From Pseudolabrys sp. (GTDB lineage Bacteria; Pseudomonadota; Alphaproteobacteria; Rhizobiales; Xanthobacteraceae): a stretch of DNA of 56,399 nt. The translations under genes were made by a program, and so were the position numbers. The stretch lies in assembly GCA_026125895.1 (NCBI GenBank), contig JAHCKG010000029.1, forward strand, positions 1 to 56,399, given 5' to 3'. Below the pieces are notes generated by a model, which saw only the letters and a list, made by a program, of their open reading frames with translations, searched no databases and was not told where the DNA came from. Shown here in pieces: positions 8,521 to 41,818 of the stretch (positions are counted from its first letter, which is position 1; every line of letters starts with the position of its first letter).

Positions 8521-8562
8521 GACCGGCACCCGCTCCCTTGAACTACCGGCGCGCCATCTGTC

Positions 8563-9804: not shown

Positions 9805-9831
9805 TCGCAACGCACGAGCGGGGCCACGTCC

Positions 9832-9915
9832 TCCGCTCGTCCCCGCGAAAGCGGGGACCCAGTGCGGCATTGAAAAGCTGATCTGGATTCCCGCTTGCGC
9901 GGGAATGAGCGGAGT
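9832..9915. repeat. Palindromic intergenic repeat, family 1, copy 1
   Basis: Two hairpins in tandem: CCCCGCGAAAGCGGGG, then about 30 nt, then TTCCCGCTTGCGCGGGAA, with outer arms CCGCTC/GAGCGG. The same design recurs at 17257-17346 and 51859-51944, so this is a dispersed REP/BIME-like element. It lies between puuD and the UraD-UraH gene. Confidence 0.75.
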
Positions 9916-9929
9916 GTGATGCAACGCCA

Positions 9930-10829
9930 ATGAGCCCACTAACCCTCGACCAACTCAACACCCTCCCCCCCGCCGATTTCACCGCGGCGCTGGCGGACAT
10001 CTACGAGCATTCGCCGTGGGTGGCGGAAGCGGCATCCAAGCAGCGGCCGTTTGCATCGCTCGCCGCACTGCATGAGGCGATGGTGGCGGCGGTCAGGGCC
10101 GCGCCGCAAGACGCGCGCATGAAGCTGATCGCGGCGCACCCCGATCTCGCCGGTAAGGCGGCGCGCGCCGGCACGCTGACCAAGGATTCGACCAGCGAAC
10201 AACTGAGCGCCGGGCTCGACCGCCTGAGCGAAGCCGACTACGCGCGCTTTCACCAGCTCAACGACGCCTACAAGGCCAGGTTCGGCATTCCCTTCATCGT
10301 CTGCGTGCGCCGGCACACCAAGGACTCGATCCTCGCCGAGTTCGAGCGCCGCCTCGCTCATGGTAATGGTATTGGCGACACCGCCGAGGCCGACACCGCG
10401 CTCGAGGAAATCTTCCGCATCGGCGCGCTGCGCCTCGACAGCCAGGTCAGCGCGCCGGACAAGCTGCCGGTCGCCGGGCGGCTGTCCACCCATGTGCTCG
10501 ACACCCACAGCGGCCGGCCGGCCGAGGGCGTGGCCGTCGAACTCTGGGAATTGGCGCGCGACGGCGCCGAACGCCTCGTCGTCAGGACGGCGACCAACAA
10601 GGACGGCCGCACCGACGCGCCGCTGATCGGCGGCCGGCCGGTGCCGCGCGGCAGCTACGAACTGCGCTTCGCCATCGGCGGCTATTTCCGGAACCGTGGC
10701 GTGGCGCTGCCCGAGCCGCCGTTTCTCGATATCGTGCCGATCCGCTTCGGCGTCGCCGAGCCGGAGGGCCACTACCATGTGCCGCTCTCGGCCTCGCCCT
10801 GGGCCTACGGAACCTACCGCGGTAGCTGA
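9930..10829 (+). CDS. Bifunctional OHCU decarboxylase / 5-hydroxyisourate hydrolase
   Basis: A 299-aa fusion that carries out both steps after PuuD. The N-terminal domain (about 1-165) is UraD-like: catalytic His70 in AHPDLAGK and RFGIPFIVCVR (117-127). The C-terminal domain (about 183-299) is a transthyretin-like HIU hydrolase (UraH): LSTHVLDTHSGRPAEGV, then ending in the diagnostic Y-R-G-S. HIU hydrolase opens 5-hydroxyisourate to OHCU, and UraD decarboxylates OHCU to S-allantoin. The two are separate proteins in many bacteria; fusion here ensures equal amounts. It is cytoplasmic, with no signal peptide. A palindromic repeat separates it from puuD. Confidence 0.93.
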   Translation: MSPLTLDQLNTLPPADFTAALADIYEHSPWVAEAASKQRPFASLAALHEAMVAAVRAAPQDARMKLIAAHPDLAGKAARAGTLTKDSTSEQLSAGLDRLSEADYARFHQLNDAYKARFGIPFIVCVRRHTKDSILAEFERRLAHGNGIGDTAEADTALEEIFRIGALRLDSQVSAPDKLPVAGRLSTHVLDTHSGRPAEGVAVELWELARDGAERLVVRTATNKDGRTDAPLIGGRPVPRGSYELRFAIGGYFRNRGVALPEPPFLDIVPIRFGVAEPEGHYHVPLSASPWAYGTYRGS

Positions 10830-30164: not shown

Positions 30165-30180
30165 TGGCGGTCCCGAGAGG
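30165..30180. repeat. Attachment site copy distal to the tRNA (attL)
   Basis: TGGCGGTCCCGAGAGG is identical to 41742-41757, the last 16 nt of tRNA-Arg(CCU) read on the + strand, including the encoded CCA end. After one mismatch, GTCG also matches. Direct repeats of a tRNA 3' end flanking an integrase gene define the ends of the integrated element (about 30181-41741). Confidence 0.9.
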
Positions 30181-30218
30181 GGTCGCCGTTTCAAGATAGA
30201 ACAATAACTTAGGCATCG

Positions 30219-30274
30219 GTGGGACAGTGAATTGTCCCGCTGTTTTACAGAGCTTTTTGCCGGCTCTGTCCCAC
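30219..30274. promoter_or_regulatory. Candidate integrase arm-type sites at the left end
   Basis: GTGGGACA occurs at 30219-30226 and inverted (TGTCCCAC) at 30267-30274; a half-copy TTGTCCC lies at 30233-30239. The same octamer occurs near the right end at 41689-41696. Repeats present at both ends of an integrating element fit arm-type binding sites for the recombinase. The region also must hold the promoter of the primase-helicase gene. Confidence 0.4.
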
Positions 30275-30295
30275 TCCGGAATACGTTAGAGCGCG

Positions 30296-31789
30296 ATGTC
30301 TGACAATCTGATCGAGGAAATCGCCGCTCTTGCGGACGGCGAGCAGACGCCGCTTGCGCCGGAGGCTGACGACACGGTGGCGCGGCCGGCCGATGGCCAG
30401 GCCGCCGAGGCCGATTCCGGGCCGCGAACTTGGGGCTACGATGTCGATGCCATCAACCGCGATTACGCCTTGGTCCTGTGGGGCGGTAAAGCCGTTGTCG
30501 TGCGAGAGCGGCCGGACGGGCCCATCGAGGATCGCGTGCGCGTGCTATCGGTCGAGGCGTTCGACCAATGGTTCGCGAACCGGTTCACCGAGATCACGAC
30601 CGCCGATGGCAAGGTGCGTGCGATCAGTTGGGGCCGCGCCTGGCGTACCGATCGCCGGCGTCGGCAATATGCTGGAATCGAGTTTTTCCCGAATCCGGAT
30701 GGGGCCGAAGGCACAAGGGACTATCTGAATTTGTGGCGCGGCCTGGCGATCGAACCTACCGCAGCTGGCGACTATTCGATCTTCCGCGACCATCTTCTCA
30801 ATCAGGTGTGTCAGGGTGATCAGGCCATTTTCGATTGGGTGTTCGGGTGGTTCGCGCACATCGTCCAACGGCCGCGCGAGCGCATCGGCACCGCGCTGGT
30901 GCTGCGCGGACGCATGGGCACCGGGAAAACCAAGGTCGGCGAGGTGATCGGATCGCTGCTGCCTGCGCATTACTTTCAGGTGGACGATCCTCGATACATC
31001 ACCGGTCAATTCAACGCTCACATGGCGTCGTGCCTTTTGCTGCAGGCTGAGGAAGCCGTGTGGGCTGGCGATAAACATGCCGAAGGTCGCCTTAAGGGCT
31101 TGATCACGTCAGAATCGCAGATGATCGAATCGAAGGGCGTCGATCCGATCCGCATCCGGAATTTTGTACGGCTGATGATGACCTCAAACGAGGATTGGGT
31201 CGTACCGGCTGGTATGGACGAGCGCCGGTTTTGCGTGCTCGACGTGCATCCGCGATGCGCGCAAAACCACGATTACTTCCGTGAAATGGACGAACAGCTT
31301 GCCGCCGGCGGGCGAGCGAGGTTGCTGCGCGATCTGCTGGCCTTCGATCTGAGCAAGGTCAATCTCCGGCAAATCCCGCGTACCGAGGCGCTCTTGGAGC
31401 AGAAGGTTCGGTCGCTCGATCCGCTCGATGGGTGGTGGCTCGCGCGTCTCATGGACGGCACCGCGACCAGCCGAAGCGCTGACTGGCCGGCGACGGTAAC
31501 GATTGATGCACTTTATGCCGACTATCTTCGCGCGGCCGAGGAGATCGGCGTCGGCCGCAAGCGTGACCGGGCGACGTTCGGTCACCGCCTGTCAAAATTG
31601 GTCCCTGGCATCAAAAAAACGAGGCCAAGGGCTGAGGGAGAGGGCCGGCGCCCTTGGTGCTATCTGCTGCCTCCCCTGGCCGATTGCCGTGGGGATTTCG
31701 AGGGGATGGTCGGCCAGCCGATCGAGTGGCCGCCCCTTCCGGCGAGCGAGAAAGAGATTTCGGCAAGCGATGAGGTAGTCCCCCTCTAG
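30296..31789 (+). CDS. Phage/plasmid primase-helicase (SF3-type, DUF5906-like)
   Basis: A 497-aa replication protein. The C-terminal half is a superfamily 3 helicase: Walker A GRMGTGKT (205-212), Walker B-like LLLQAEEAVW (about 247-256), sensor LMMTSNED (293-300) and DERRF (308-312). A C-terminal winged-helix-like segment (about 410-460) fits the D5/DUF5906 family. The N-terminal 130 residues lack obvious AEP primase motifs, so it may be helicase only. It is the first gene of the element and is followed directly by a dense repeat array that looks like its origin. It would drive autonomous or helper-linked replication after excision. Confidence 0.85.
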   Translation: MSDNLIEEIAALADGEQTPLAPEADDTVARPADGQAAEADSGPRTWGYDVDAINRDYALVLWGGKAVVVRERPDGPIEDRVRVLSVEAFDQWFANRFTEITTADGKVRAISWGRAWRTDRRRRQYAGIEFFPNPDGAEGTRDYLNLWRGLAIEPTAAGDYSIFRDHLLNQVCQGDQAIFDWVFGWFAHIVQRPRERIGTALVLRGRMGTGKTKVGEVIGSLLPAHYFQVDDPRYITGQFNAHMASCLLLQAEEAVWAGDKHAEGRLKGLITSESQMIESKGVDPIRIRNFVRLMMTSNEDWVVPAGMDERRFCVLDVHPRCAQNHDYFREMDEQLAAGGRARLLRDLLAFDLSKVNLRQIPRTEALLEQKVRSLDPLDGWWLARLMDGTATSRSADWPATVTIDALYADYLRAAEEIGVGRKRDRATFGHRLSKLVPGIKKTRPRAEGEGRRPWCYLLPPLADCRGDFEGMVGQPIEWPPLPASEKEISASDEVVPL

Positions 31790-31790
31790 C

Positions 31791-32043
31791 TTGGTCCTAG
31801 TGGTCCTAGCGTCACAATTCGCTAGGACCGCCGAAAACCCCCTAAAAATAAGGCTTGGTCCTAGTGGTCCTAGTGGTCCAGGTCGCGCGTGCGTGTGGGA
31901 AAATCTAAAACCCGCGTCGCATCAACACGTCTCCTCCTAATTCTCTTTTTTGCTTGGACCACTAGGACCACTAGGACCAGCCCTTATTTTTCAAGGTCTT
32001 TTGCGGTCCAGGCAAAAATGTAGCCCTTGGACCGCCTTGGACC
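31791..32043. repeat. GGTCC/CTAG repeat array with 37-nt inverted arms, candidate replication origin
   Basis: Twelve GGTCC or GGACC pentamers in about 250 bp. A first pair forms GGTCCTAGCG (31802-31811) / CGCTAGGACC (31820-31829). A larger dyad has arms 31844-31880 and 31955-31991 that match at 35 of 37 positions, each holding three tandem 9-mers GGTCCTAGT, around a 74-nt loop. Further single copies lie at 32005, 32029 and 32039. CTAG, a rare tetramer in proteobacteria, occurs eight times. It sits between the primase-helicase and the next gene, the usual place for an origin. Confidence 0.65.
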
Positions 32044-32059
32044 ACGACAGGAGTCTGCT

Positions 32060-32317
32060 GTGAGCAAACCGACTACCGATCAACTCTCCTTTGCGCGGAC
32101 GATGAGCCGGCGGCAGAGGCTGGCGCTCTGGAACTTGGCCGATCATCCGGCTTACATGAGCGTGTCGGAACAGATCGACGCCGAGTTCAAAGCACTGATC
32201 AAGCATGGCCTTGCGGCAGGCCACAGCACGACGCCGGATGGTAGCGGGCCATTCATGTGGGCGGCGACCGATGCCGGCAAGGCGATATCGAAGCAGGTGG
32301 CAGCCGGCGAGCTTTGA
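32060..32317 (+). CDS. Hypothetical protein of the element (85 aa)
   Basis: GTG start with ACAGGAG 7 bp upstream. The sequence has a helical N-terminal half (MSRRQRLALWNLADHP) and a C-terminal segment FMWAATDAGKAISKQ. This pattern (short helices, then an aromatic-rich beta-like wing W-A-A-T-D-A-G) resembles small winged-helix proteins, but I do not recognise a family. It follows the repeat array, so a role in replication control is possible. Codon use agrees with the neighbouring genes. Confidence 0.65.
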   Translation: MSKPTTDQLSFARTMSRRQRLALWNLADHPAYMSVSEQIDAEFKALIKHGLAAGHSTTPDGSGPFMWAATDAGKAISKQVAAGEL

Positions 32318-32411
32318 CCTCGCCGACCCGACGGGTCCTTCCCCGCCCCCCGAGGGGTGCGGACGTAAGCGGCCCCCGATTCCTTCCAGTTGGGCTACTC
32401 GAAAACTTTGG

Positions 32412-32525
32412 TTGTCAGAGTTGTCAGCCATTGACAGTCGGTTGTCACGCAACCCTCTGTTTTCACTAGGTTTCGATCATCTGTTGGAACATCGGCGAAA
32501 GCCGACCGCTGTCAATGTTGACAGC
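32412..32525. promoter_or_regulatory. TGTCA/TGACA operator-like cluster ahead of the structural genes
   Basis: TTGTCA occurs at 32412, 32421 and 32442 and TTGACA at 32431. The dyad GCTGTCAATGTTGACAGC (32508-32525) has perfect 8-bp arms and ends 28 bp before the tail-chaperone start. The set of six half-sites suggests an activator or repressor site controlling the tail genes. No candidate regulator gene is certain. Confidence 0.45.
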
Positions 32526-32553
32526 CACATCCTCACGAAAACGGGAGAATACG

Positions 32554-32880
32554 ATGAGCGATCATTTCACGATCGAGAGCGACGGCGTGCGTGTCGTGAA
32601 GCTGGAAAAGCCTTTCGAGGGTCATCACGGCATGATCAGCGAGATCAGGCTCAGGCCTCCGACCTACAAGGATTTTATGGAACTGGGTGACCCGACTGTG
32701 CTGGTCGTTGTCGCCAATGGAATGGTGCCGCAAGACGATCTTGTGACGATCGGCAAGTACATCTCCAGGCTCGGCGGCGGCGACACCGCGCGCCTCGATA
32801 CAGTCGGCACGCTGCGCGATGCGGAGGCGCTGACTAAGGCGGTCAAAAGTTTTTTTACTCAGGCGTCGGCAAGCAACTAG
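32554..32880 (+). CDS. Phage tail assembly chaperone (short, zero-frame product)
   Basis: A 108-aa protein (start ATG with GGGAGA upstream) with a beta-rich N-terminal half (LEKPFEGHHGMISEIRLRPPTYKDFMELGD, quoted in part) typical of the tail assembly chaperone families that precede tape-measure genes. It would coat the tape-measure protein during tail-tube assembly. Near its end it runs through seven Ts (32850-32856) and then terminates at TAG 32878-32880. A -1 shift gives a longer product (see the next entry). Immediately downstream is the tape-measure gene, the canonical position. Confidence 0.8.
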   Translation: MSDHFTIESDGVRVVKLEKPFEGHHGMISEIRLRPPTYKDFMELGDPTVLVVVANGMVPQDDLVTIGKYISRLGGGDTARLDTVGTLRDAEALTKAVKSFFTQASASN

Positions 32881-33011
32881 ACCGCTACGCCGACTTTCTG
32901 ATTTTTGAGGTACGTCTCGCGCCGAGCGAGATCAACGCCATGACGATCGACGAAATCGTGCGGCTAACCGCCCGAAGCGTCGACTACATAAGGCGAAAAC
33001 GAGGTTCCTGA
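32850..33011 (+). CDS. -1 frame extension of the tail chaperone (gpGT-like programmed frameshift)
   Basis: The zero-frame codons TTT TTT preceded by T form a canonical slippery heptamer (T TTT TTT, 32850-32856). Slipping back one base gives TAC TCA GGC GTC... and an open frame of 51 codons from 32856 to TGA at 33009-33011, one base before the tape-measure ATG. The fused product is 152 aa; the extension contains LDRYADFLIFEV and MTIDEIVRLTARSVDYI. A possible stimulatory stem GTCGGC (32865-32870) / GCCGAC (32889-32894) starts 8 nt downstream. Such G/GT frameshifts are conserved in long-tailed phages. Confidence 0.75.
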   Translation, partial: FFYSGVGKQLDRYADFLIFEVRLAPSEINAMTIDEIVRLTARSVDYIRRKRGS

Positions 33012-33012
33012 C

Positions 33013-35097
33013 ATGGCTCGAACTATTCTCGATGCAGAGGCTCGGATCACCGCGCGCGATCGAACCGGAGGCGTGTTCGATGGCATCGCCAACAAAATCA
33101 GGCGCGTGAACGGGGCGGCGAATGCCGCGAACCGGCAAATGGGGACTATTGAGCGCGCGAGCGCCGCGGTGTCGCGATCAACCGGCGCGATCGTTGCGGC
33201 GTCCACCCGCATGTTGGCGCCGCTCGCTGCCGGCTACGGTATTTCGCAAGGCGTCAAGCGGTTCGGCGAAACCGAGATGGCCATCACGCGCATCGGCATC
33301 ACGGCCGACGCCACCGACGCCGAGGTCGGTCACCTGCATAAGACGCTGCGCGGCCTGGCGTTCGAAGCAGGCAAGCCGTTTGATGAAGTGACAGGCGGTC
33401 TTGAGCAGCTTGTCGCCGGCGGTCTCGACCTGCCGCAGGCCATGCCGGCGATGCCGGCCATCGTTAAAACCGCCCAGGCCGCAGGCGCCGAGGTGCGTGA
33501 CATGGCGAACACGTCGCTCGCGTTGATTCAGAACATGGGCATCGCCGGCGCCAAGATGCAGGACGCTTTCGACATCCTGGTCGCCGGTGGCAAGGCCGGG
33601 AAATTCGAACTTAAAGATATGGCCCGCTACCTCCCATCGATCATGCCGCAGGCCGTCGCTGTGGGCATGAAGGGTGAGGATGGCCTCAAGCGCATCGTCG
33701 CATTACTGCAGGCTGTGCGCGCTGGCACCGGCACAACCGAAGAAGCCGCGTCATCAGTGGCAAATATTTTCGCCAAGATGGAAAGCGAGGAAACCGCCAA
33801 GAGATTTTCGAAATTCGGTATCGATCTTCGTAAGGAAATGGCGCAAGCGCGCAAAGAAGGTAAGGACCTCCTTGAGGTCTTTACTGGCTTGTCCAAGAAG
33901 GCCGTGAACGGCGATCTTTCGAAGCTTCCGCAACTCTTCTCCGACATGGAATTCGCGCGCGGTATGCGGGCGCTAATGTCTTTTGGGGATCTTCTGACCG
34001 AAGTGATGGGCAAGCTCAACAGCGCCCGAGGTTCGGCTGGTCGCGATTTCGATCGGGTGATGACCAAGAGCCAAGTTTCGATCAACCGCCTGTCCGAAAG
34101 CTGGGATCGCGCGACTGAGTCGATTGGTCGCCTTATCGATCGTCTCGGCGGCTCAAAATTCCTCAATGGCATCGCTAAAACCGTCGAAAGTACAATTGAT
34201 TCCATCGACCGCCTTGGCGATCCCAAGAAAAGTGAAGAATTTCGGCGCGAGCGCGGTCAACCGCAGACAGCTTCGGAACTACATGATCGGCTGTTGCAGC
34301 AAAAGAAGCGCGAGCAACTGGCCGACCTCGATTCTAAAGTCGCGGTAGCCGAACACGATGTCGCCGCGGCAGAGGCGACGGCGAAGTTACGCAGGGGCCT
34401 TGGCCGTGATCCCGGCGACGCGCGGCGTAATCTGGAACGGCTTCGCATCGAGCGGGAATCTGTGCGTCTGCAAATCGAAGCGCTTAAAATTCCCTATCCG
34501 CTGCCGATCGACCTAAAGCAATTCGCCGAAAAGAAGGGAGGCCACGTTGTCGAGCCTTCCAGCCGCAAGTTGCGGCCCGGCGAGGCCGACTCGATCAAAA
34601 AGGAGTTGATTTCGGCCGGGGACGTGCTTCATCCGGTTGTGCGGCCTATGCCCCGCCCCGATCCGCGGCGGCAACCTTCGACGCCAATCTTCGTCAACGG
34701 TCTTGACCTGCCGCCGCAGCCTATTGAGGCACGCGCTCTACCCAAGCCGCCAGACCTGCCGCCGCAGCCTACTGAGGCACGCGCTCTACCCAAGCTGCCA
34801 GACCTGCCGCCGCAGCCTACTGAGGCACGCGCTCTACCCAAGCCGCCAGACCTGCCGCCGCAGCCTACTGAGGCACGCGCTCTACCCAAGCTGCCAGACC
34901 TGCCGCCTATAGCCGAGCCGCAGCTGCGGGGGTCCGCTGAGATCACAAACAAGATCGTCGTGGAGCCGTCGCCGGATTTCATCACCCGCGTGATCCAGTC
35001 CGTCCGTAGCGCGATTCCCGGCCTATCTGTTCGTGATGGGACCACTGGTTCGACGGGAGGATCGATGCCAGAGGCCGACCCCGGTAGAAACTATTAA
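33013..35097 (+). CDS. Phage tail tape-measure protein (TP901 family type)
   Basis: A 694-aa, mostly helical protein that sets tail length. The N-terminal part has Mu/TP901-type text (ITARDRTGGVFDGIANKIRRV; then FGETEMAITRIGITADATDAEV) and a hydrophobic stretch TRMLAPLAAGYGISQG. A coiled-coil-like region lies around 415-485. Residues about 565-632 are a tandem 16-residue repeat (DLPPQPTEARALPKPP), followed by a short tail domain. Length is at the lower end for tape measures; at the usual about 0.15 nm per residue the tail would be near 100 nm. It starts one base after the chaperone frameshift product. Confidence 0.85.
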   Translation: MARTILDAEARITARDRTGGVFDGIANKIRRVNGAANAANRQMGTIERASAAVSRSTGAIVAASTRMLAPLAAGYGISQGVKRFGETEMAITRIGITADATDAEVGHLHKTLRGLAFEAGKPFDEVTGGLEQLVAGGLDLPQAMPAMPAIVKTAQAAGAEVRDMANTSLALIQNMGIAGAKMQDAFDILVAGGKAGKFELKDMARYLPSIMPQAVAVGMKGEDGLKRIVALLQAVRAGTGTTEEAASSVANIFAKMESEETAKRFSKFGIDLRKEMAQARKEGKDLLEVFTGLSKKAVNGDLSKLPQLFSDMEFARGMRALMSFGDLLTEVMGKLNSARGSAGRDFDRVMTKSQVSINRLSESWDRATESIGRLIDRLGGSKFLNGIAKTVESTIDSIDRLGDPKKSEEFRRERGQPQTASELHDRLLQQKKREQLADLDSKVAVAEHDVAAAEATAKLRRGLGRDPGDARRNLERLRIERESVRLQIEALKIPYPLPIDLKQFAEKKGGHVVEPSSRKLRPGEADSIKKELISAGDVLHPVVRPMPRPDPRRQPSTPIFVNGLDLPPQPIEARALPKPPDLPPQPTEARALPKLPDLPPQPTEARALPKPPDLPPQPTEARALPKLPDLPPIAEPQLRGSAEITNKIVVEPSPDFITRVIQSVRSAIPGLSVRDGTTGSTGGSMPEADPGRNY
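34705..34908 (+). repeat. 48-bp tandem repeat inside the tape-measure gene
   Basis: Four full 48-bp units begin at 34705, 34753, 34801 and 34849, with a partial fifth at 34897. Units 1 and 3 end AAGCCGCCA, units 2 and 4 AAGCTGCCA, so the last duplication copied a 96-bp pair. Unit 1 alone has CTATTGAGG in place of CTACTGAGG. The reading frame is kept, giving a Pro-rich 16-residue protein repeat. Confidence 0.9.
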
Positions 35098-35142
35098 TTC
35101 CTTGAGGCCAGAATGCCGAGCTAACCAGCGGAGGGATGGTTC

Positions 35143-35313
35143 ATGCAGAACACGCCACATCGGCTTCCGTCGAACGATGACCTGGCTCGGATGACCGAGG
35201 AGTTGGAAGCCTTTTGCCGTCAGCATCAGCCGCTTTCACCGGAGGTGACTGAGGCGATTGAGCGTGAGGTGCGCCGCGGGTCTTTCCCCAACCCCCACGG
35301 CCTGCGGCGCTAA
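35143..35313 (+). CDS. Hypothetical small protein of the element (56 aa)
   Basis: An ATG with a good ribosome site (GGAGGG, 35130-35135) opens a 56-codon frame ending TAA. The protein is charged and helical (DDLARMTEELEAFCRQHQ; EVTEAIEREVRRG), with no family I recognise. Size and place, between the tape measure and a structured non-coding stretch, suggest an element-specific regulator or assembly factor. Its stop is followed within 7 bp by a repeat region. Confidence 0.6.
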   Translation: MQNTPHRLPSNDDLARMTEELEAFCRQHQPLSPEVTEAIEREVRRGSFPNPHGLRR

Positions 35314-35699
35314 GGCGGCCCGAACACGCCGAACATACCGAACACGATGGCCGAACACGTCCCCGGCAAACTTGCGAAAATCGCAAATTTGCCGCCATTG
35401 GCGGCGGTTGATTCTCGGTGTAAGTTTTGAGTTGGGTGTCGAAACCCGGACCTGAGATAGGCAGGCTTCCGATTGGCGTCGGTAAGCTGCCGATGCACCA
35501 GAGCCTTGGCGGGCTCTACGGTGCGCTGGCATCGCCTTGGCGGGCGAGCCGTCCTGGCCATATTGGCCGGGGGCGGTGCGTCATGTCCAGAGCGAAAGCT
35601 TAAAAGCCGCCGACCTGTCTCTCAGGCAGGTTTCGACCCCCCGGCTGCCGGTCCCGCCGATCGGCAAGGCTGTCGAAAGCCGAACCTGAGAGCTATCCC
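35314..35699 (+). ncRNA. Hairpin-dense non-coding stretch, candidate structured RNA
   Basis: 386 bp without a credible gene. In order: CGAACA repeated four times (35321-35357); a 13-bp hairpin 35365-35377/35381-35393 with one mismatch and loop AAA; three stem-loops with the same six-base loop TTGGCG at 35473-35478, 35506-35511 and 35537-35542, each with a different stem of 8-11 bp and one small bulge; CCTGGCCA-TAT-TGGCCGGG (35553-35571); and a long imperfect stem 35619-35637/35671-35691. A 21-nt sequence at 35437-35457 recurs at 35671-35691 (19 of 21 matches). I do not recognise a known RNA family. Confidence 0.5.
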
Positions 35700-36506
35700 A
35701 TGACCACAACCGAGGACCGGTGCGACAATGCTTCGCCCGCGCATCCGCGCGCGCAAACACAGGAGTGTCGAGATATCATGTCAGCGTCAGTTCATGCGTT
35801 CACCCCCCGCGCCGCCGCGCCTGCACAAGGCTCCCATGGCGAAGCAAGCCTTATCGAACTCGGCCGCCAATTCGATAAGCAGTTGCTGATCGTTCGCAGG
35901 CTGAGTGAAGAATCCGAGAGACTGGACGATATTTCCGAGGCGCAAATGCCATCTTGGCCGACCGCGGCATGTGTTCGCCCTGGTGATCGAGTGTTGCTGC
36001 GGGGGCGTTTCAGTAGCGCCGACTTCACGACCGGGCGGCCTTACACCTACGCCGAGATAAACCGCATGACGGAATGGAAGGTGCACTTGTTCATCTTTAG
36101 GCCTGCGATCGGATCGCCTCGATCGCACAAAGCATTGCCATGGCCACGCGCGCAGAGGCGCCTTGATGAAATCTGCGCCGCACACCAGCAATGGCGGGCG
36201 GATTGTATTTCAGTTCGGGAAAACACGGGCTACGCCGAAACCTATCGCGCCTTATCGGCGGCCGACGACAAACTGTTTACGATCATTGAAGGCATCGCTT
36301 CGGCAAGGGCGCTTTCCCCCGAGGGCTTAGCGGCGAAGGCAAGGGCTGCCGCTTTTCTCAAGGAGCGATTCGATCCGGTGGAGGATACGGACGATGAGGA
36401 GATCGATGATCGCCTGATGCGATCGCTTTATCGTGACGCGATCGCCATCGGCACGCCGCCGTCGCCGGCCGCGCCGGCGGCCCGCCGCGCTGCCGGTATC
36501 GCCTAA
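35700..36506 (+). CDS. Hypothetical protein of the element (268 aa)
   Basis: The first start is the ATG at 35700, right after the long stem of the structured stretch; an ATG at 35778 (MSASVHAF) with AGGAG upstream is equally plausible and would give 242 aa. The sequence is mixed helical with an internal segment RPGDRVLLRGRFSSADFTTGRPYTYAEI (quoted in part) and ends in an acidic run (DPVEDTDDEEIDDRLM) and an Ala/Pro-rich tail. No signal peptide or membrane segment is seen. I do not recognise a family; the place suggests a head- or DNA-related function. Confidence 0.65.
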   Translation: MTTTEDRCDNASPAHPRAQTQECRDIMSASVHAFTPRAAAPAQGSHGEASLIELGRQFDKQLLIVRRLSEESERLDDISEAQMPSWPTAACVRPGDRVLLRGRFSSADFTTGRPYTYAEINRMTEWKVHLFIFRPAIGSPRSHKALPWPRAQRRLDEICAAHQQWRADCISVRENTGYAETYRALSAADDKLFTIIEGIASARALSPEGLAAKARAAAFLKERFDPVEDTDDEEIDDRLMRSLYRDAIAIGTPPSPAAPAARRAAGIA

Positions 36507-36529
36507 GCCCGAATCGGCTTTCCGAAATC

Positions 36530-36558
36530 ATCGCCCGGCGGCTTCGCGGCCGGGCGAT
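36530..36558 (+). terminator. Strong hairpin between two unknown genes
   Basis: ATCGCCCGGC (36530-36539) pairs with GCCGGGCGAT (36549-36558), 10 bp, with loop GGCTTCGCG. It lies 24 bp after the preceding stop. No T-tract follows, so it may slow polymerase or protect RNA and is not a clear terminator. Confidence 0.45.
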
Positions 36559-36705
36559 GCAGGGGTCAACCCTGCGCCCGCCGACAAATTTATTCTGTCG
36601 GTCGCTCAAAAAGTTGGCCGCAGTTTGCGGGCCGAGAGTGGCGCCTCCCCTTGTCAGCCTACCATCGCGCATCTAGTCCGCTGCAATTCACTCTTGAGGT
36701 GACAT

Positions 36706-37218
36706 ATGCCGGCAAAGGCGAAGAAAACCGCCGCGGCGAAAGCCGCCGCCGCCTCGCCATCGTTTCGCGACCGCAAAAAGAGCGTGTTGCTGCAGCTTCA
36801 CAATCGAAAGGCACTCTGTGACGATCCTAAGACCTCTCGTCTATTACTCATCGCCGGTGAAATTTGGCGCCGCCTGATGACTTCGGAAGCCCCAACAGTC
36901 GGGGCGTCAGCTTCGGCCCTTGTCGAGCGGGTCGACACGTCCATATCTCAGGACGCGATCGATCGCCGCATGGCGCTTATTCTCGACGCGGACGCGAAGA
37001 ACAGGCAGCAACGCAAATATGCCGAGCACCTTCGGCAGGCCATCGGTCAATATGCCGCTGAGGTTCTCGATGCGGTCGCGCGCGACGATCTAGAAATCGA
37101 TCTTGCCGCTAAGCGTCTCTATGGGAAGGACGACAAGCTGAGTGTGGTCTGCACACGCGAGCGCCTGCGGGCATCCCTGCACAGCCTGACCGCCCTCCTC
37201 CGCTTACCAGGTACCTAG
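36706..37218 (+). CDS. Hypothetical protein of the element (170 aa)
   Basis: ATG with GAGGTG upstream. The N-terminus is Lys/Ala-rich and basic (MPAKAKKTAAAKAAAASPSF), followed by a largely helical protein (RLLLIAGEIWRRLM; RQQRKYAEHLRQAIGQYAAEVLDAV, in part). The basic tail suggests nucleic-acid contact. It is not recognisably a small terminase, although size would allow it. It is flanked by a hairpin upstream and an intrinsic terminator downstream. Confidence 0.65.
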   Translation: MPAKAKKTAAAKAAAASPSFRDRKKSVLLQLHNRKALCDDPKTSRLLLIAGEIWRRLMTSEAPTVGASASALVERVDTSISQDAIDRRMALILDADAKNRQQRKYAEHLRQAIGQYAAEVLDAVARDDLEIDLAAKRLYGKDDKLSVVCTRERLRASLHSLTALLRLPGT

Positions 37219-37278
37219 AAAGCTTTTCTGTTGCCGGGTACCCGAGTTTGTGGCTTCATGGCTACACACGGAATTCCG

Positions 37279-37317
37279 CCCGGCCGAGCCTCATCTCGCG
37301 CCGGGTTTTTGTTTTCG
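37279..37317 (+). terminator. Intrinsic terminator in the element (1)
   Basis: CCCGGC-CGAG (37279-37288) pairs with CTCG-(C)-GCCGGG (37295-37305, one bulge) and is followed by TTTTTGTTTT. It separates the 170-aa gene from the 202-aa gene. Confidence 0.75.
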
Positions 37318-37345
37318 CCATCCCCCAATTGGAGAATTTTCAGTC

Positions 37346-37954
37346 ATGAACACCCCTTTCGCCAAACACGGCTTGCGGCAAAACCAGTTTGCCGCGCTCA
37401 TGCAGATGAGCGTTGACGAGGTTCGCTCCTTGATGAACAGCATGCCGTCCCTTGCTTCACAGACCTCGGTTGCAATGGCTCGGCTGTCTGGCGCCGGCGT
37501 TCGCTATAGCTACCGAGAGGCCCTGGCGATCGAGGCGGCGCGCCAGCTGACTGACGATGGCGGTTTGTCGATGGAGAGTGCGATGCGCATCGTGATCTCG
37601 AATATCGGCCGCTATTTCGAATATCGGTGTTCCGACAGTGGCAAGACCGACTCGGACTTCTGGATCGGCGTGACCCGCGCTCGGAATACCTGGGACCAGG
37701 CCAAGGAGCCTCGCGGCTCGTATCCGGTCACCAGTTTTGGGCCCGGCGAATTTTGGTCGGGCAATCATTACGCCGGCGCGCTGGCGGAGGTCCTCACGAC
37801 GACGCAGGAATGGCAGCGGCACGACGAGCAGATGTATCCAGAATCGGACCCCGCGGCGATATTCCTCACGAACATTTCCGCTGCTGACCGCCGCTTGCGT
37901 CAGCGTGCCGGCGATCTGATCGAAGTCGACGCGGACGAATTCACCGCGACTTAG
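37346..37954 (+). CDS. Hypothetical protein of the element (202 aa)
   Basis: The ATG at 37346 has GGAG 11 bp upstream and follows a terminator, so longer in-frame readings are rejected. The N-terminus (KHGLRQNQFAALMQMSVDEVRSLMNSMP, in part) looks like a helix-turn-helix, then comes YSYREALAIEAARQLTDDGGLSMESAMRIVISNI (in part), reminiscent of MerR-like or phage regulatory proteins. An aromatic segment EFWSGNHYAGALAEVL follows. No firm family. Terminators on both sides suggest it is expressed separately, perhaps as a regulator of the capsid gene. Confidence 0.6.
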   Translation: MNTPFAKHGLRQNQFAALMQMSVDEVRSLMNSMPSLASQTSVAMARLSGAGVRYSYREALAIEAARQLTDDGGLSMESAMRIVISNIGRYFEYRCSDSGKTDSDFWIGVTRARNTWDQAKEPRGSYPVTSFGPGEFWSGNHYAGALAEVLTTTQEWQRHDEQMYPESDPAAIFLTNISAADRRLRQRAGDLIEVDADEFTAT

Positions 37955-37986
37955 CCGCTCAACTTCATCTAATTGAGCCTGCCCGC

Positions 37987-38015
37987 CGGCGCCTATCAGG
38001 GCGCCGTTTTCTTTT
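37987..38015 (+). terminator. Intrinsic terminator in the element (2)
   Basis: CGGCGCC (37987-37993) pairs with GGCGCCG (38000-38006), loop TATCAG, followed by TTTTCTTTT. It lies between the 202-aa gene and the protease-capsid gene, 25 bp before the latter's start. Confidence 0.78.
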
Positions 38016-38039
38016 GTCCGAACATAAAGGACTCTTCGC

Positions 38040-39986
38040 ATGTCGATCATGCGCGACTCGACGATGACGCTTTATGGCGCCGTCAGAACCGATGACCTTG
38101 ACGATTTGTCGGGGTTCTCCGCTCGCGATGTACGCACCGCCCTCGATAACCACGGCGCCGGCGACATCATTGTCTGCCTCAACTCGCCTGGCGGCAACGC
38201 CTTTGAAGGGCTTGCTATCTACAACGCGCTGAAGAGCCACCATGGAAAGGTGACGATTAACATCGATGGCGTCGCCGCTTCGGCGGCATCGCTGATCGCG
38301 ATGGCGGGCGATGAGATCGTCATGCTCAGCGGCGCCATGATCATGATTCATGATCCGCGCAGCGTCACGGTCGGGACTTCTGCCGCCCATCGCAAAGTCG
38401 CAGACGATCTCGAATTGATGGCGCGACAGTTCGGCGAAATCTACGCCGAGCGCACCGGCCAGACACCGCAAGCGATCGCGGAAATGATGGCCGCCGAAAC
38501 CTGGTGTGACGCCGATAAGGCCATCGCAAGTGGCTTTGCGACCCGCAAGGCCGAAACCAAATCTGCGCGCATCTTCGCTGACTTCGACTACAGCCAATAC
38601 GGCAACGCTCCCAAATTTCTTATGCAAATGAAGAAAGGACCGACTGCAATGCCCAATACAACTGATGGCGACATCGCCAATGACTTTTTGAACGCGAAAC
38701 CTTGGGCCGGACGTTTCTATCGCAGCGCCGGCACGTCCGACCTTTCGATCGGTGTTCTCAATGACATCGTCGAGATGTCTGCGACGTATGACGATGCCAG
38801 GGACGAGCTCGTCGCCGCTATGGCGGCGTCGACCAATGCGAACAAACCGAGCCCGCAAAGCCGCTCTCCGTATGGGCTGGGCGCGGGCAACACGTTTGGT
38901 AATCCGAACTTCCTGGCCAAAACGATCGGCGATGTCCTGCACGCACGAATGAGCGGCGCGGCGCCAGAAGGGGCCGCTCGTGAATTGATGGGTTGTTCGA
39001 TCCTCGAACTCGGGAGCCGCCTCGCTGAGGTGAACGGCCAGCGCATTTCGTGGAGCAGCCGCGGTGAAGTTGTCGACAACATCATGATGACGGCCGGTGG
39101 CCACAGCACGAGCGATTTCTCGCAACTGCTCCTCGGCGCCGGCAACCGCGTCTTTCTCGATGCCTACAAGCTTGCCGAAAGCCCGCTCAAGGGCCTCGGC
39201 AAGCGTCGAGACGCGGCGGATTTCCGGCCCCTGATGTCCATTCGCTTGAGCGAAGCTCCGGCATTGCTGGAAAAGCCCGAGGGTGGCGAACTGACTTATG
39301 GCTCTCGATCGGAGACCGTTGAGTCCTTCGCCCTCAAGCCGGCGGGCCGAATCTTCGCCATCACGCGCGAAGCGCTCATCAATGACGACCTCGGTGCGTT
39401 CTCATCCTCCGCGCGGGCGTGGGGGCGCACGGCGGCCCTTTATGAAGCCGATCGCCTGTATTCCCTGTTCTCGGCAAACGGCGGCGCCGGCGCGACTCTG
39501 TCGGACAATAACGCGCTCTATACGACCGCGCGCGGCAACAAACTGACCGTCGGATCGGCGCTCGCCAGTGGCTCGCTCAGCAGCGCTCGGCAATCGATGC
39601 GTTCGATGAAGGACCCTGACGGCAAGACGTTCATCAACCTCAAGCCCCGTCATCTTGTGGTCGGCCCTTCGCTTGAGGAGACAGCGTTGCAACTCGCAGC
39701 GACGATCACTCCGACTGCCATCAACGATGTGAACACTTTCGCCGGCAAGCTGGACGTTCACGTCGAGCCCCGCTTTCAGGACGCCACCTGGCGAATCTTT
39801 GCCGATCCGAGCGACCTGCCTGTGATCGTGTACGGGTACCTGAACGGGCAGGCTGGCCCTCAGTTGGCGACAAAGGAAGGCTGGACAACGCTCGGTATGG
39901 AATTCCGTTGCGTTCTCGACTTCGGCTGCGGCCTTGAAGATTGGCGCGGTTCGGTGATGGCAACCGGCGAGGCGCCGGCGGAATAG
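38040..39986 (+). CDS. ClpP-like prohead protease-major capsid protein fusion
   Basis: A 648-aa fusion seen in some proteobacterial phages. Residues 1-185 are a ClpP-type serine protease: NSPGGNAFEG (48-57), nucleophile Ser81 in VAASAAS and His104 in MIMIHDP. From about 204 to the end is the major capsid part (HK97-like architecture inferred): GNPNFLAKTIGDVLHARM, PLMSIRLSEAPALLEKPEGGE (in part), FAITREALINDDLGAF and ATWRIFADPSDLPVIVYGYLNGQAGP (in part). Protease and shell encoded together allow self-processing during capsid assembly. An in-frame ATG at 38649 with AAAGGA upstream may yield free capsid protein. Confidence 0.87.
   Translation: MSIMRDSTMTLYGAVRTDDLDDLSGFSARDVRTALDNHGAGDIIVCLNSPGGNAFEGLAIYNALKSHHGKVTINIDGVAASAASLIAMAGDEIVMLSGAMIMIHDPRSVTVGTSAAHRKVADDLELMARQFGEIYAERTGQTPQAIAEMMAAETWCDADKAIASGFATRKAETKSARIFADFDYSQYGNAPKFLMQMKKGPTAMPNTTDGDIANDFLNAKPWAGRFYRSAGTSDLSIGVLNDIVEMSATYDDARDELVAAMAASTNANKPSPQSRSPYGLGAGNTFGNPNFLAKTIGDVLHARMSGAAPEGAARELMGCSILELGSRLAEVNGQRISWSSRGEVVDNIMMTAGGHSTSDFSQLLLGAGNRVFLDAYKLAESPLKGLGKRRDAADFRPLMSIRLSEAPALLEKPEGGELTYGSRSETVESFALKPAGRIFAITREALINDDLGAFSSSARAWGRTAALYEADRLYSLFSANGGAGATLSDNNALYTTARGNKLTVGSALASGSLSSARQSMRSMKDPDGKTFINLKPRHLVVGPSLEETALQLAATITPTAINDVNTFAGKLDVHVEPRFQDATWRIFADPSDLPVIVYGYLNGQAGPQLATKEGWTTLGMEFRCVLDFGCGLEDWRGSVMATGEAPAE
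38634..38651 (+). promoter_or_regulatory. Internal ribosome site and start for capsid domain
   Basis: AAAGGA (38634-38639) lies 9 bp before an in-frame ATG at 38649 (codon 204), exactly at the protease-capsid junction. Initiation here would give a 445-aa capsid protein without protease. Inference from sequence only. Confidence 0.45.
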
Positions 39987-40203
39987 CATCATCTGCCGAT
40001 GGCGCTTGCGGCCGATGGTTGCCGCGAGCGCCTCGATTTACTCACCGGCGTGGTGATCCTGAGGGCGTCGCGGCCACGTCCAAAAAGCACAAGCTCACCT
40101 CCCCTACCTCGCCGGTGCCCTGCATATGGAACGGTCTGCAGGGGGATTTTCATTGGGGGGTCAAGGTGAGCACCGGCCGCACTAATTTAATCGCGATCAT
40201 CCG

Positions 40204-40458
40204 ATGTCCACACCGACCCAAAACGCGCAGGCGCGCGCGCCAAAAAGCGTGCTGCCACCTTCGTTGCCGCCGCGCGGCTTGTCGCGTGCCCAGGCGGCGG
40301 AATATATCGGCGTGGGCGCGACGTTGTTCGACCAGCTTGTGAAAGATGGGCGGATGCCACCCGCCAAGCGAATCAACGGCCGGACGGTTTGGGACCGCCG
40401 CCGGCTTGACGAAGCGTTTGAGGCCTTGGACGATGGCGTTGTGTCCGAATGGGACTAA
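40204..40458 (+). CDS. Excisionase-like helix-turn-helix DNA-binding protein
   Basis: An 84-aa protein with a MerR/AlpA-type helix-turn-helix: LSRAQAAEYIGVGATLFDQLVKDGRMPPAKRINGRTVWDRRRLDEAF (in part). This is the standard small protein that binds attachment-site DNA to promote excision or activates the integrase. It ends 5 bp before the preferred integrase start, so the two are coupled. The 217 bp upstream contain no convincing gene. Confidence 0.82.
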   Translation: MSTPTQNAQARAPKSVLPPSLPPRGLSRAQAAEYIGVGATLFDQLVKDGRMPPAKRINGRTVWDRRRLDEAFEALDDGVVSEWD

Positions 40459-40463
40459 GGGCG

Positions 40464-41489
40464 ATGAAAGTCCGGCTCAAATACCTAAGCGAGGATGTGG
40501 ACCGGCACGGCAACGTCCGTTGCTATGTCCGTGTGCCTGGAAAGCCTAAGGTGCGATTGCGATCGCAACCCGGCTCGCCGAATTTCATGGACGAATATCG
40601 GGCCGCGTTCTCGCTGGCGGCCGAGTCTGTCACCGTCAGGACGTTGGCGCGCGGGACCTTCGGTTATCTTTGCAATGCCTACTTTGCGAGCCAGGCATTC
40701 AGGTCCCTCGACAAAAGCACTCAGAGTTGGCGCCGCCGCGCCCTGAATGAACTGGTCGAGAGGCATGGCGACAAACGCGTATCAACGTTGCAGGCGCGTC
40801 ACATCAGGAAGCTGCGAGATGAAAAGCGCGTGGACGGCGACGGTGCGGCCAACATTCGGGTCAAGGCACTGAGGGCATTGTTTAGGTGGGCGGTTGAAGC
40901 CGACGAAGCAACTTCCGATCCAGCGCGTGATGTCCAGCTTATTCGCTACGTTACTCGCGGCTTCCATACATGGTCTATCGACGAGGTCGCAGCATTTGAA
41001 AAGCGCCACCCGATTGGGACCAAGGCGCATCTGGCGCTATCTATCCTGCTTTACACCGCGTGCCGCCGCGAGGATGCCGTTCGATTAGGACCGCAGCATC
41101 TACGCGATGGCCGCATCAAGTACACCCAAGCGAAGAATGAAAATCGCAACCCCGTTACGCTCGATATCCCGGCGCATCCTGATCTTGTCGCCTCGATCGA
41201 GGCGGCGCCGTCTGGTCATCTGACGTTTCTCGCGACGGAGTACGGCCGACCTTTCACCGTTGCCGGCTTTGGGAATTGGTTTCGTGACAGGTGCAATGAG
41301 GCGGGCTTGCCTCATTGTACCGCGCATGGGCTGCGAAAGGCGACAGCAACGCGACTTGCCGAGCGAGGCGCAACTGCGCATCAGATCATGGCAGTGACCG
41401 GTCACAAGACGCTACAGGAGGCCGAGAGATACACCCGTGCTGCCCGGCAGGCTCAGTTAGCTGACGCAGCGATGGCTAAGTTGAAATGA
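40464..41489 (+). CDS. Tyrosine-type phage integrase
   Basis: A site-specific recombinase of 341 aa, or 346 aa if the ATG at 40449 is used. Numbering from 40449: core-binding domain about 60-165; catalytic residues Arg206 (TACRREDAVRL), His293 and Arg296 (HGLRKATATRL), His319 (GHKTLQEAERYTR) and nucleophile Tyr328. It lies about 250 bp from tRNA-Arg, the usual place for an integrase using a tRNA 3' end. Both ends of the element carry matching attachment repeats, so integration by this enzyme is well supported. Its stop overlaps the start of a small membrane protein. Confidence 0.93.
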   Translation: MKVRLKYLSEDVDRHGNVRCYVRVPGKPKVRLRSQPGSPNFMDEYRAAFSLAAESVTVRTLARGTFGYLCNAYFASQAFRSLDKSTQSWRRRALNELVERHGDKRVSTLQARHIRKLRDEKRVDGDGAANIRVKALRALFRWAVEADEATSDPARDVQLIRYVTRGFHTWSIDEVAAFEKRHPIGTKAHLALSILLYTACRREDAVRLGPQHLRDGRIKYTQAKNENRNPVTLDIPAHPDLVASIEAAPSGHLTFLATEYGRPFTVAGFGNWFRDRCNEAGLPHCTAHGLRKATATRLAERGATAHQIMAVTGHKTLQEAERYTRAARQAQLADAAMAKLK

Positions 41490-41650
41490 CGCGTAAGACG
41501 GTAAAGCGTATCGAATTTGTCGTCGGCGCCATTACGACAATCTTGCTGTTCGCCGGCCTGATCTTGGCCGATCGCTATCTTTCACCTGATCGACTTCCTC
41601 TGCTTGATCCCGATGAACGTGATCCTGTCGGGTATCACGGTCACGAGTAG
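41486..41650 (+). CDS. Small single-span membrane protein coupled to the integrase (54 aa)
   Basis: ATG overlaps the integrase stop (ATGA). The protein has a basic N-terminus (MTRKTVKRIE), one hydrophobic helix (FVVGAITTILLFAGLILA) and a short acidic tail with His/Asp residues, so it should insert with the N-terminus inside. Function unknown; small membrane proteins of prophages often act in exclusion or host interference. The overlap argues for real translation. Confidence 0.55.
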   Translation: MTRKTVKRIEFVVGAITTILLFAGLILADRYLSPDRLPLLDPDERDPVGYHGHE

Positions 41651-41699
41651 AACACCGCGGGAACGATATTGCCCCACCTTGAATGCTAGTGGGACAAAT

Positions 41700-41728
41700 G
41701 ACCTGAAAAAATCTAGATATATCAGGTC
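41700..41728. terminator. AT-rich hairpin at the right end of the element
   Basis: GACCTGA (41700-41706) pairs with TCAGGTC (41722-41728) around an A/T-rich loop containing TCTAGA. It may end the integrase transcript before the antiparallel tRNA, or bind recombination proteins near the attachment site. Confidence 0.4.
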
Positions 41729-41741
41729 GGTGTTTTAGGAG

Positions 41742-41818
41742 TGGCGGTCCCGAGAGGAGTCGAACCTCCGACCTTCGGTTTAGGAAACCGCTGCTCTATC
41801 CTGCTGAGCTACGGGACC
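41742..41818 (-). tRNA. tRNA-Arg (anticodon CCU)
   Basis: 77 nt with a full cloverleaf: acceptor GGTCCCG/CGGGACC, D-stem GCTC/GAGC, anticodon loop TTCCTAA (anticodon CCT), T-stem GGAGG/CCTCT with loop TTCGACT, discriminator G and encoded CCA. One mismatch (G-A) closes the outer anticodon stem. It reads AGG codons. The last 16 nt are duplicated at 30165-30180, marking it as the integration site of the element. Confidence 0.95.

Follow-up and report, generated by a model that had tools for sequence, protein, structure and literature searches.

Capsid-forming phage-inducible chromosomal islands (cf-PICIs) are described as encoding a portal, head-tail connectors, the small and the large terminase subunit (TerS and TerL) and an HNH protein (PMC10690885), and putative tape measure genes are mentioned for some of them in the legend of Extended Data Fig. 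10 of PMC12987554. For the phage-inducible chromosomal island-like elements (PLEs), which are satellites of phage ICP1, the same article reports that a satellite-encoded tail assembly chaperone (TAC) and tape measure protein (TMP) build chimeric tails with the satellite's own TMP in the tail, and that PLE11 particles contain the capsid protein of the helper (PMC12987554). PICIs of Gram-negative bacteria are reported to carry cosQ-cosN together with a sequence at the R3 position and to be packaged by the terminase of the helper (PMC9026076). The Streptomyces satellites MulchRoom and MiniFlayer encode terminase subunits and a portal, with no primase homologue, and P4 is stated to redirect P2 capsids using Sid (both PMC10690885). 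Here we describe an element in a stretch of 56,399 nucleotides of Pseudolabrys sp. (contig JAHCKG010000029.1; this whole stretch is called the window in the following), which encodes its own capsid protein, a TAC and a TMP and carries a putative cos-like packaging signal. Judged from comparative sequence analysis, it is quite probably an intact integrative phage satellite, which would build its own capsid, form part of a chimeric tail and be packaged via the portal and the terminase of a helper phage.

The element resembles cf-PICIs in having its own major capsid protein with a head protease, an integrase and an excisionase-like gene next to the capsid gene, and about the same size, but portal, connectors, TerS, TerL and HNH were not found in it, and its cos-like site is followed by TAC and TMP. 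Like the PLEs it encodes a TAC (below the Pfam cut-off, but with an E value of 1.3e-8 in PHROG) and a TMP; unlike them it has its own capsid gene, the PLEs being compared here by their description and not by gene sequence. Thus, it fits neither group, because motor and portal, typical of cf-PICIs, were not found and because it has its own capsid in contrast to the PLEs. With the Gram-negative PICIs the element may share a lambda-like cos site, as a cosQ word is followed by repeats with suitable spacing, but the score against a profile built from phages is weak; it differs from them in adding capsid and tail genes. No Rpp was identified in the element, the gene g2 beside the cos-like site being a mere candidate. 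A satellite-encoded capsid is also shared with MulchRoom and MiniFlayer, which differ by their terminase and portal and by the lack of a primase homologue. P4 has a helicase with an iteron origin as well as an AlpA-like regulator, and the element is P4-like in these features; it is different in possessing its own capsid. TMPs in satellites are already published, but in the literature searched (titles and beginnings of abstracts, with few subscription journals) we found no satellite that combines a capsid of its own with TAC-TMP and cos while lacking terminase and portal.

Integration site and gene set

The element is bounded by two exact 16-bp repeats separated by 11,577 bp. The left one (30165..30180) is a copy of the 3' end of a tRNA-Arg(CCT) gene (41742..41818, minus strand; ARAGORN and Rfam), and the right one (41742..41757) lies within this gene and begins at its 3' end. 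In three of 19 congeners compared (G070, G142, G034) the flanks join at the tRNA without the element, and their left flanks are 84-87% identical to that of the window. The earlier note had taken the repeats together with integrase and excisionase as a sign of an integrated mobile element, and repeats as well as genes were found. A full-length prophage with the same genes at the same site, which according to this note would speak for a deletion remnant, was not found among the relatives, three congeners being empty there instead.

All genes are oriented on the plus strand in the order prim, iteron origin, g2, cos-like site, TAC, TMP, g5, g6, g7, g8, protease-capsid fusion, xis and int. The first gene, prim (30296..31789), encodes a putative replicative helicase of superfamily 3 (SF3) type, DUF5906/VapE-like (E 5.9e-23 for DUF5906, 4.1e-46 for a PHROG primase); the primase match covers just the C-terminal part, and an N-terminal primase domain was not matched in the family scans. 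It is followed by a predicted replication origin (31790..32026), in which the iteron TGGTCCTAG, allowing one mismatch, occurs eight times within 237 bp in direct and inverted arrays, whereas 40 shuffled sequences hold 2.1 on average and never more than 3. Such an array stands directly after prim in seven elements with 5-11 copies (at most four in 40 shuffles each) and a comparable arrangement around a GC-rich stretch. The word itself varies between the elements, yet repeats within each of them, as expected for an origin that is bound by a replication protein, so that the likely origin of the earlier note is backed by an iteron count above chance and a layout common to relatives. TAC (32554..32880, the start codon being our choice within the open reading frame (ORF) 32515-32880) matches the tail family PHROG 166 with 1.3e-8 and, under the family cut-off, PF10109 with 0.0032. 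The TMP of 694 aa (33013..35097) matches PF10145 with 5.6e-26 and is 76% identical to that of L052, a piece of a related element, and 48% to that of the myoprophage L267. A ClpP-like head protease (5.7e-26) is fused to an HK97-type major capsid protein (Phage_capsid_4, 2.7e-40) in a single gene (38040..39986). The helix-turn-helix (HTH_17)/excisionase-like gene xis (40204..40458) matches PF12728 with 1.3e-4, which is below its cut-off, and PHROG 66 (excisionase) with 1e-6, and the tyrosine integrase int (40449..41489) is recognized by its homologues and Phage_integrase; in a set of 120 ORFs with nine integrase candidates, this family matched nine ORFs, counted without itemising them. These matches agree with the helicase, chaperone, tape measure, capsid and excisionase named before, the chaperone match being the weaker one. 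The statement that no repressor is present is not established, as small genes of the helix-turn-helix (HTH) type, g2 and xis, are found.

A putative cos site of the lambda type

The stretch 32333..32447 (plus strand), which the earlier note does not mention, is a cos-like site of the lambda type and a putative packaging signal, composed of a cosQ word, a cosN-like stretch and TTGTCA/TTGACA repeats. The cosQ word GGGTCCTTCCC at 32333-32343 opens a conserved stretch of 116 bp (32332-32447), which is 87% identical to that of the relative L035 in a base-by-base comparison of close relatives. For cos of lambda and PICIs the site R3 or its equivalent, bound by TerS or Rpp, is placed at bp 48-65 (PMC9026076). 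In the lambda record GGGTCCTTTCC starts 30 bp before the left end, and therefore an R3 equivalent would be expected at about +78 to +95 from cosQ. The repeats of the element start at 32412, 32421, 32431 and 32442, which is the position of cosB, and in all five close elements compared TTGTCA repeats begin at +80 and +89 (+79 and +88 in L035), each segment holding three to six TTGTCA/TTGACA words where the overall rate of the respective element would predict 0.14-0.34. Moreover, a cosQ-like word is found twice in the window, as GGGTCCTTCCC and as the variant GGGTCTTTCCC (35278..35320, plus strand), both times inside the element, and none of 100 shuffles reaches two. Two such words flank TAC-TMP in the element as well as in L052 and in the IMG/VR contig L134.

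In phages and cf-PICI-like elements the cosQ word is found close to terS or terL, too. In the cf-PICI-like relatives it is followed by terS-terL-portal, in the element of the window by TAC-TMP, and the simplest reading is that a packaging module has been exchanged for a tail-ruler module, in either direction. A search pattern derived from these satellites' own sites found the cos subtype of the window in three of 292 family genomes, in each case in these satellites (zero with the backward-read control), and gave three matches in viral contigs, which are satellites, too.

In Rhizobium, similar sites connect satellite-like elements with myoprophages. Two terminase-less elements, L084 of Rhizobium sp. 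SL86 and L106 of R. terricola, and two terminase-bearing ones, L092 of R. metallidurans and the viral contig L166, have cosQ (GGGTCCTCCCC in L092), CTAGTGA and a stretch resembling cosN in common, together with CTGAC repeats that lie +75, +80 and +88/89 from cosQ; the clade of the window has the same five bases in the opposite orientation. L092 and L166 encode terminase, portal, sheath, tube, TAC and TMP. The TMP of L084 is over nearly its whole length 37-41% identical to those of L092, L166 and Rhizobium phage PPF1, and no TMP match was obtained for L106. The record of PPF1 starts and ends within a sequence resembling cosN of these sites; no cosQ word was found at the end of this record.

Relatives and selection

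The genes g8, capsid and integrase are shared by seven relatives, six from family genomes (L034, L035, L037, L038, L039, L041) and one from a contig of a metagenome-assembled genome (L061), among which prim, TAC and TMP vary. All seven are repeat-bounded, 9.7-13.6 kb in size and located at other sites, of which six have a tRNA gene (Glu twice, Phe, Thr, Val and Arg(TCT)), none being called at L034; with L134 as the eighth, tRNA genes are called at seven of eight related elements. L134 has nearly the full gene order of the element, and prim-g2-TAC-TMP is found on the pieces L052 and L292. Looking for the same gene order at other loci, as had been proposed, shows that the core recurs in seven repeat-bounded relatives and nearly the complete order in one contig. 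Homologues of g2 occur in six other distinct elements (L034, L038, L039, L041, L052, L134) and also in L292. At the TAC-TMP position L041 carries a probable type IIG restriction-modification gene (7031-10021, minus strand), a defence cargo, and L034 (13.6 kb) an apparent IS66, both being assigned to these elements by ORF length. L061 carries a TMP of a different family, and the genome G038 harbors two related elements, L034 and L036, one without TMP and one in the order capsid-TAC-TMP.

The ratio of nonsynonymous to synonymous substitution rates (dN/dS), to be read with synonymous sites close to saturation, lies between 0.10 and 0.30 for the genes prim, tac, tmp and int in comparison with L052, L134 or L037. 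In detail, it is 0.12 for prim against L052 and L134, 0.10 for both TAC and TMP against L052, 0.30 for g2 against L052 (saturated against L134), 0.21-0.33 for g8 and 0.52 for g6. By these values most genes of the element are under purifying selection. The preference of the earlier note for a satellite over random decay is supported by the empty sites, the recurrence with repeats, the order in L134 and dN/dS.

Among the matches of the window proteins scanned against Pfam and PHROG with E up to 1, families of terminases, portals, tail tubes and lysis proteins are missing, as had been noted before, and there is no head-tail connector or HNH match; dedicated profiles gave no portal or terminase in the element either. 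In a broader scan, 120 ORFs of nine elements and L052, chosen by hand from ORFs called by custom scripts without a gene finder, gave no terminase or portal among the best 25 of 36 Pfam and the best 25 of 39 NCBIfam families; 80 role-less ORFs of this set gave none either when they were rescanned and all families examined, and a match to a head-tail adaptor family was obtained for a single ORF. From wider elements, ORFs of at least 300 aa other than capsid, integrase and known TMP were scanned, plus some shorter ones; for the 42 ORFs of larger size (37 of them from 19 of the 20 wider elements, five from the first set), neither terminase nor portal appears in the complete list of 25 Pfam families or in the best 25 of 79 PHROG families, and the matches of the wider elements are replication proteins, TMPs and cargo. 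Names of the Sid type do not appear in the Pfam lists of the window, among the best 25 of 36 families of the 120 ORFs or in all 16 of the rescan, no search with a Sid profile having been made.

A wider class of terminase-less capsid elements

Scanning with a capsid alignment gave 349 loci in genomes and 597 in viral sequences, of which the best 80 each were kept. Sorting by profile matches to TerS, TerL, portal and tail genes led to three kinds. Phages make up 63 rows. Terminase or portal without a sheath, tube or baseplate match is found in 69 rows, many of them with terS-terL-portal-capsid-integrase (cf-PICI-like), which include real phages and cut contigs, too. The remaining kind, 43 rows, is terminase-less, and 26 of these are repeat-bounded at a tRNA. 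These 26 elements span 9,364-12,008 bp (mean 10,974, standard deviation 690), a statistic restricted to rows with a repeat of at least 14 bases at a called tRNA, so that it excludes L034, where no tRNA was called, and the other terminase-less rows, which include short or cut contigs. Hosts of terminase-less elements are Rhizobium, Sphingomonas, Microvirga, Halomonas and others. A cosQ word is present in 13 of the 43 rows, 11 times in capsid orientation. In a capsid tree of 157 rows the terminase-less label changes seven times, at least four of them forced by starred branches; one terminase-less clade belongs to Halomonas and kin, and the clade of the window falls within one starred group that holds most cf-PICI-like elements. 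This tree is of a quick kind with long-branch warnings, including the branch of the window itself, and leaves out 14 short loci and rows with fewer than 250 aligned residues. Per analysis, 13 to 22 duplicate loci were excluded, some identical pairs staying among the terminase-bearing rows. An association of TMP carriage with lack of a terminase (14 of 26 against two of 27 repeat-bounded elements, Fisher p 2.7e-4) is not claimed, as the starred branches of the capsid tree leave only three independent pairs, and on the tree it is not significant. L283 combines cos-TMP-TerL-portal-capsid-integrase in 17.1 kb, L284 the same without cosQ word in 16.3 kb, both being repeat-bounded, and L286 and L269 contain large terminase, portal, capsid and TMP together in other orders.

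We lean slightly towards the view that these elements represent a recurrent satellite class, which would carry the parts that set particle dimensions, i.e. the capsid and in 14 of 26 elements a tail ruler, in some cases a phage-type cos, and would take the rest from a helper. That the helper supplies portal, packaging motor, tail tube, sheath, baseplate and lysis in this class, so that the particle would be chimeric at head and tail, seems to us only a little better than an even guess.

Proposed life cycle and alternative explanations

For the element in the window, we consider the following course the most probable. Upon infection or induction of a helper, probably a cos-type myophage, the element would excise through int and xis and replicate from the iteron origin by means of the SF3-type helicase that it encodes, and form concatemers. 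The lambda-type terminase of the helper would then recognize the satellite cos, and the DNA would enter, via the helper portal, a prohead made of the satellite protease-capsid fusion. This head would join a chimeric tail consisting of TAC and TMP of the satellite and tube, sheath and baseplate of the helper, and lysis would be brought about by helper genes. A function of the TMP in shortening the tail was considered and dropped, since satellite TMPs (694 aa in the window, 609 in L037, 614 in L134) resemble in length those of related myophages, with 606 aa annotated for PPF1 and open frames of 653 in L267 and 633 in L092.

Several observations weigh against such a satellite. With a cos profile built from lambda and 16 phage and cf-PICI sites, the window obtains a weak score (9.0 bits and E 7.2 over 17 aligned bases), and neither L034 nor L065 appears at E up to 10, whereas L038 (0.0016), L134 (0.0061), L084 (0.013) and L106 (0.049) score better. 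Among the 292 family genomes and the viral contigs no helper carrying the cos subtype of the window was found. Of the 26 repeat-bounded elements without terminase, only seven carry the cosQ word in the orientation of the capsid gene and 19 do not, and 12 have no TMP match. The own genome, a draft that is 82% complete, gave no sheath or GpA terminase match, other terminase families being unsearched. Furthermore, with dN/dS of 0.40-0.46 the capsid gene is under less constraint, and the literature searched offers no precedent for a satellite capsid with the portal of the helper.

Among other explanations, a prophage that has lost its packaging, tail and lysis genes would account for the clear phage homologues of the structural genes, and the variant second cosQ word could mark an old recombination. 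Yet related gene sets sit at different sites with both repeats and a narrow size, the genes are under purifying selection, origin and cos-like site are conserved and empty sites exist, and we reject a deletion remnant on the empty sites, recurrence and constraint, giving it hardly any credence. Highly improbable, too, is that one of the genes g6-g8 encodes a strongly diverged portal, terminase or connector, which would bring the element nearer to cf-PICIs. All three have no assigned function, a single g8 homologue out of nine matches PF11123 (DNA_Packaging_2) with E 0.097, and the head-tail adaptor match of the related set might be seen as a hint at a connector. However, portals and large terminases are usually longer than 268 aa, and g6, the longest gene of the element lacking an assignment, g7 and g8 have 268, 170 and 234 aa, respectively; moreover, a structure model of g8 has no match in the Protein Data Bank (PDB) at E 0.001, and another g8 homologue fits a MerR HTH model. 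HK97-fold shells can also be cellular, and HK97-type portal genes exist elsewhere in the host, so a non-viral or gene-transfer-agent-linked island reusing phage proteins, e.g. as a protein compartment, was considered. This is very unlikely, because such an island has no role for a cos-like site, TAC-TMP and integrase/excisionase, and related elements bear capsid and TMP beside terminase and portal.

The structural genes might instead mainly sabotage the helper, as a dominant-negative capsid or tail ruler, while the DNA rides in ordinary helper particles. Blocking of tail assembly by satellites and prophages is reported (PMC11364771; PMC12987554), TAC and TMP could interfere without entering the particle, and cos-bearing PICIs are described as using helper capsids (PMC9026076). 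On the other hand, the protease-capsid fusion, TAC and TMP match whole families and not fragments and are under constraint, the uniform size of the 26 elements fits a fixed small capsid, and the PLE11 particle is reported to contain the satellite TMP (PMC12987554), so that sabotage as the main function is unlikely, though not to be neglected.

Further features of the locus

The small gene g2 (32027..32317, plus strand) between origin and cos-like site encodes an HTH-like protein (PHROG 686, E 0.0088). Behind the TMP gene follow the small ORF g5 (35143..35313), g6 (35700..36506) with no Pfam or PHROG match, g7 (36706..37218), without assignment in the family scans, and g8 (37250..37954), all on the plus strand. 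The latter has 16 invariant columns across nine elements, the MerR fit of one homologue being at 1.8e-5; its model has a pLDDT of 71, and no PDB sequence was found by searching with the g8 profile. Within the TMP gene, a proline-rich tandem repeat of 48 bp/16 residues (34705-34896) is missing from the TMP of L052, which is 84% identical where aligned. The stretch 35367..35753, apparently noncoding to 35699, is conserved in the base-by-base comparison, with 78-79% identity to L052 and L035, substitutions even across codon phases and stops in all six frames of the window; L052 and L035 are 96% identical here despite far-apart TMPs, and RNAalifold with four sequences gave 11 of 114 pairs changed on both sides. 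A regulatory RNA or an exchange point is possible. In the capsid fusion the protease half (38040-38700) is ClpP-like, while close relatives pair an HK97/S78-type protease with the same kind of capsid, which is apparently due to a domain swap; the AlphaFold model of the capsid is of low confidence (pLDDT 38). The own genome (G000) has a single copy each of the capsid and TMP genes, two weak matches of the capsid query (29% and 37% identity) being confined to the protease half. Its HK97-type portal genes at C2:132149-133138 and C34:72331-73318, with no tail or capsid profile match nearby, perhaps belong to a gene transfer agent or a prophage. In Rfam, the tRNA alone reached the gathering score, three other matches staying below theirs, and a promoter scan found none against 3.7 expected.

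Implications for satellite biology

As far as the cited literature describes them, capsid-making satellites bring motor and portal along with the capsid, whereas the element in the window keeps capsid, tail ruler and a putative packaging signal without a detectable motor or portal. If our reading is true, its capsid has to function together with the portal vertex of another phage, and this would be directly relevant to portal-capsid recognition and to the minimal needs of a satellite. Chimeric tails would then extend from the PLE satellites to alphaproteobacteria, and in Rhizobium named satellite-phage pairs are at hand with which this could be tested.

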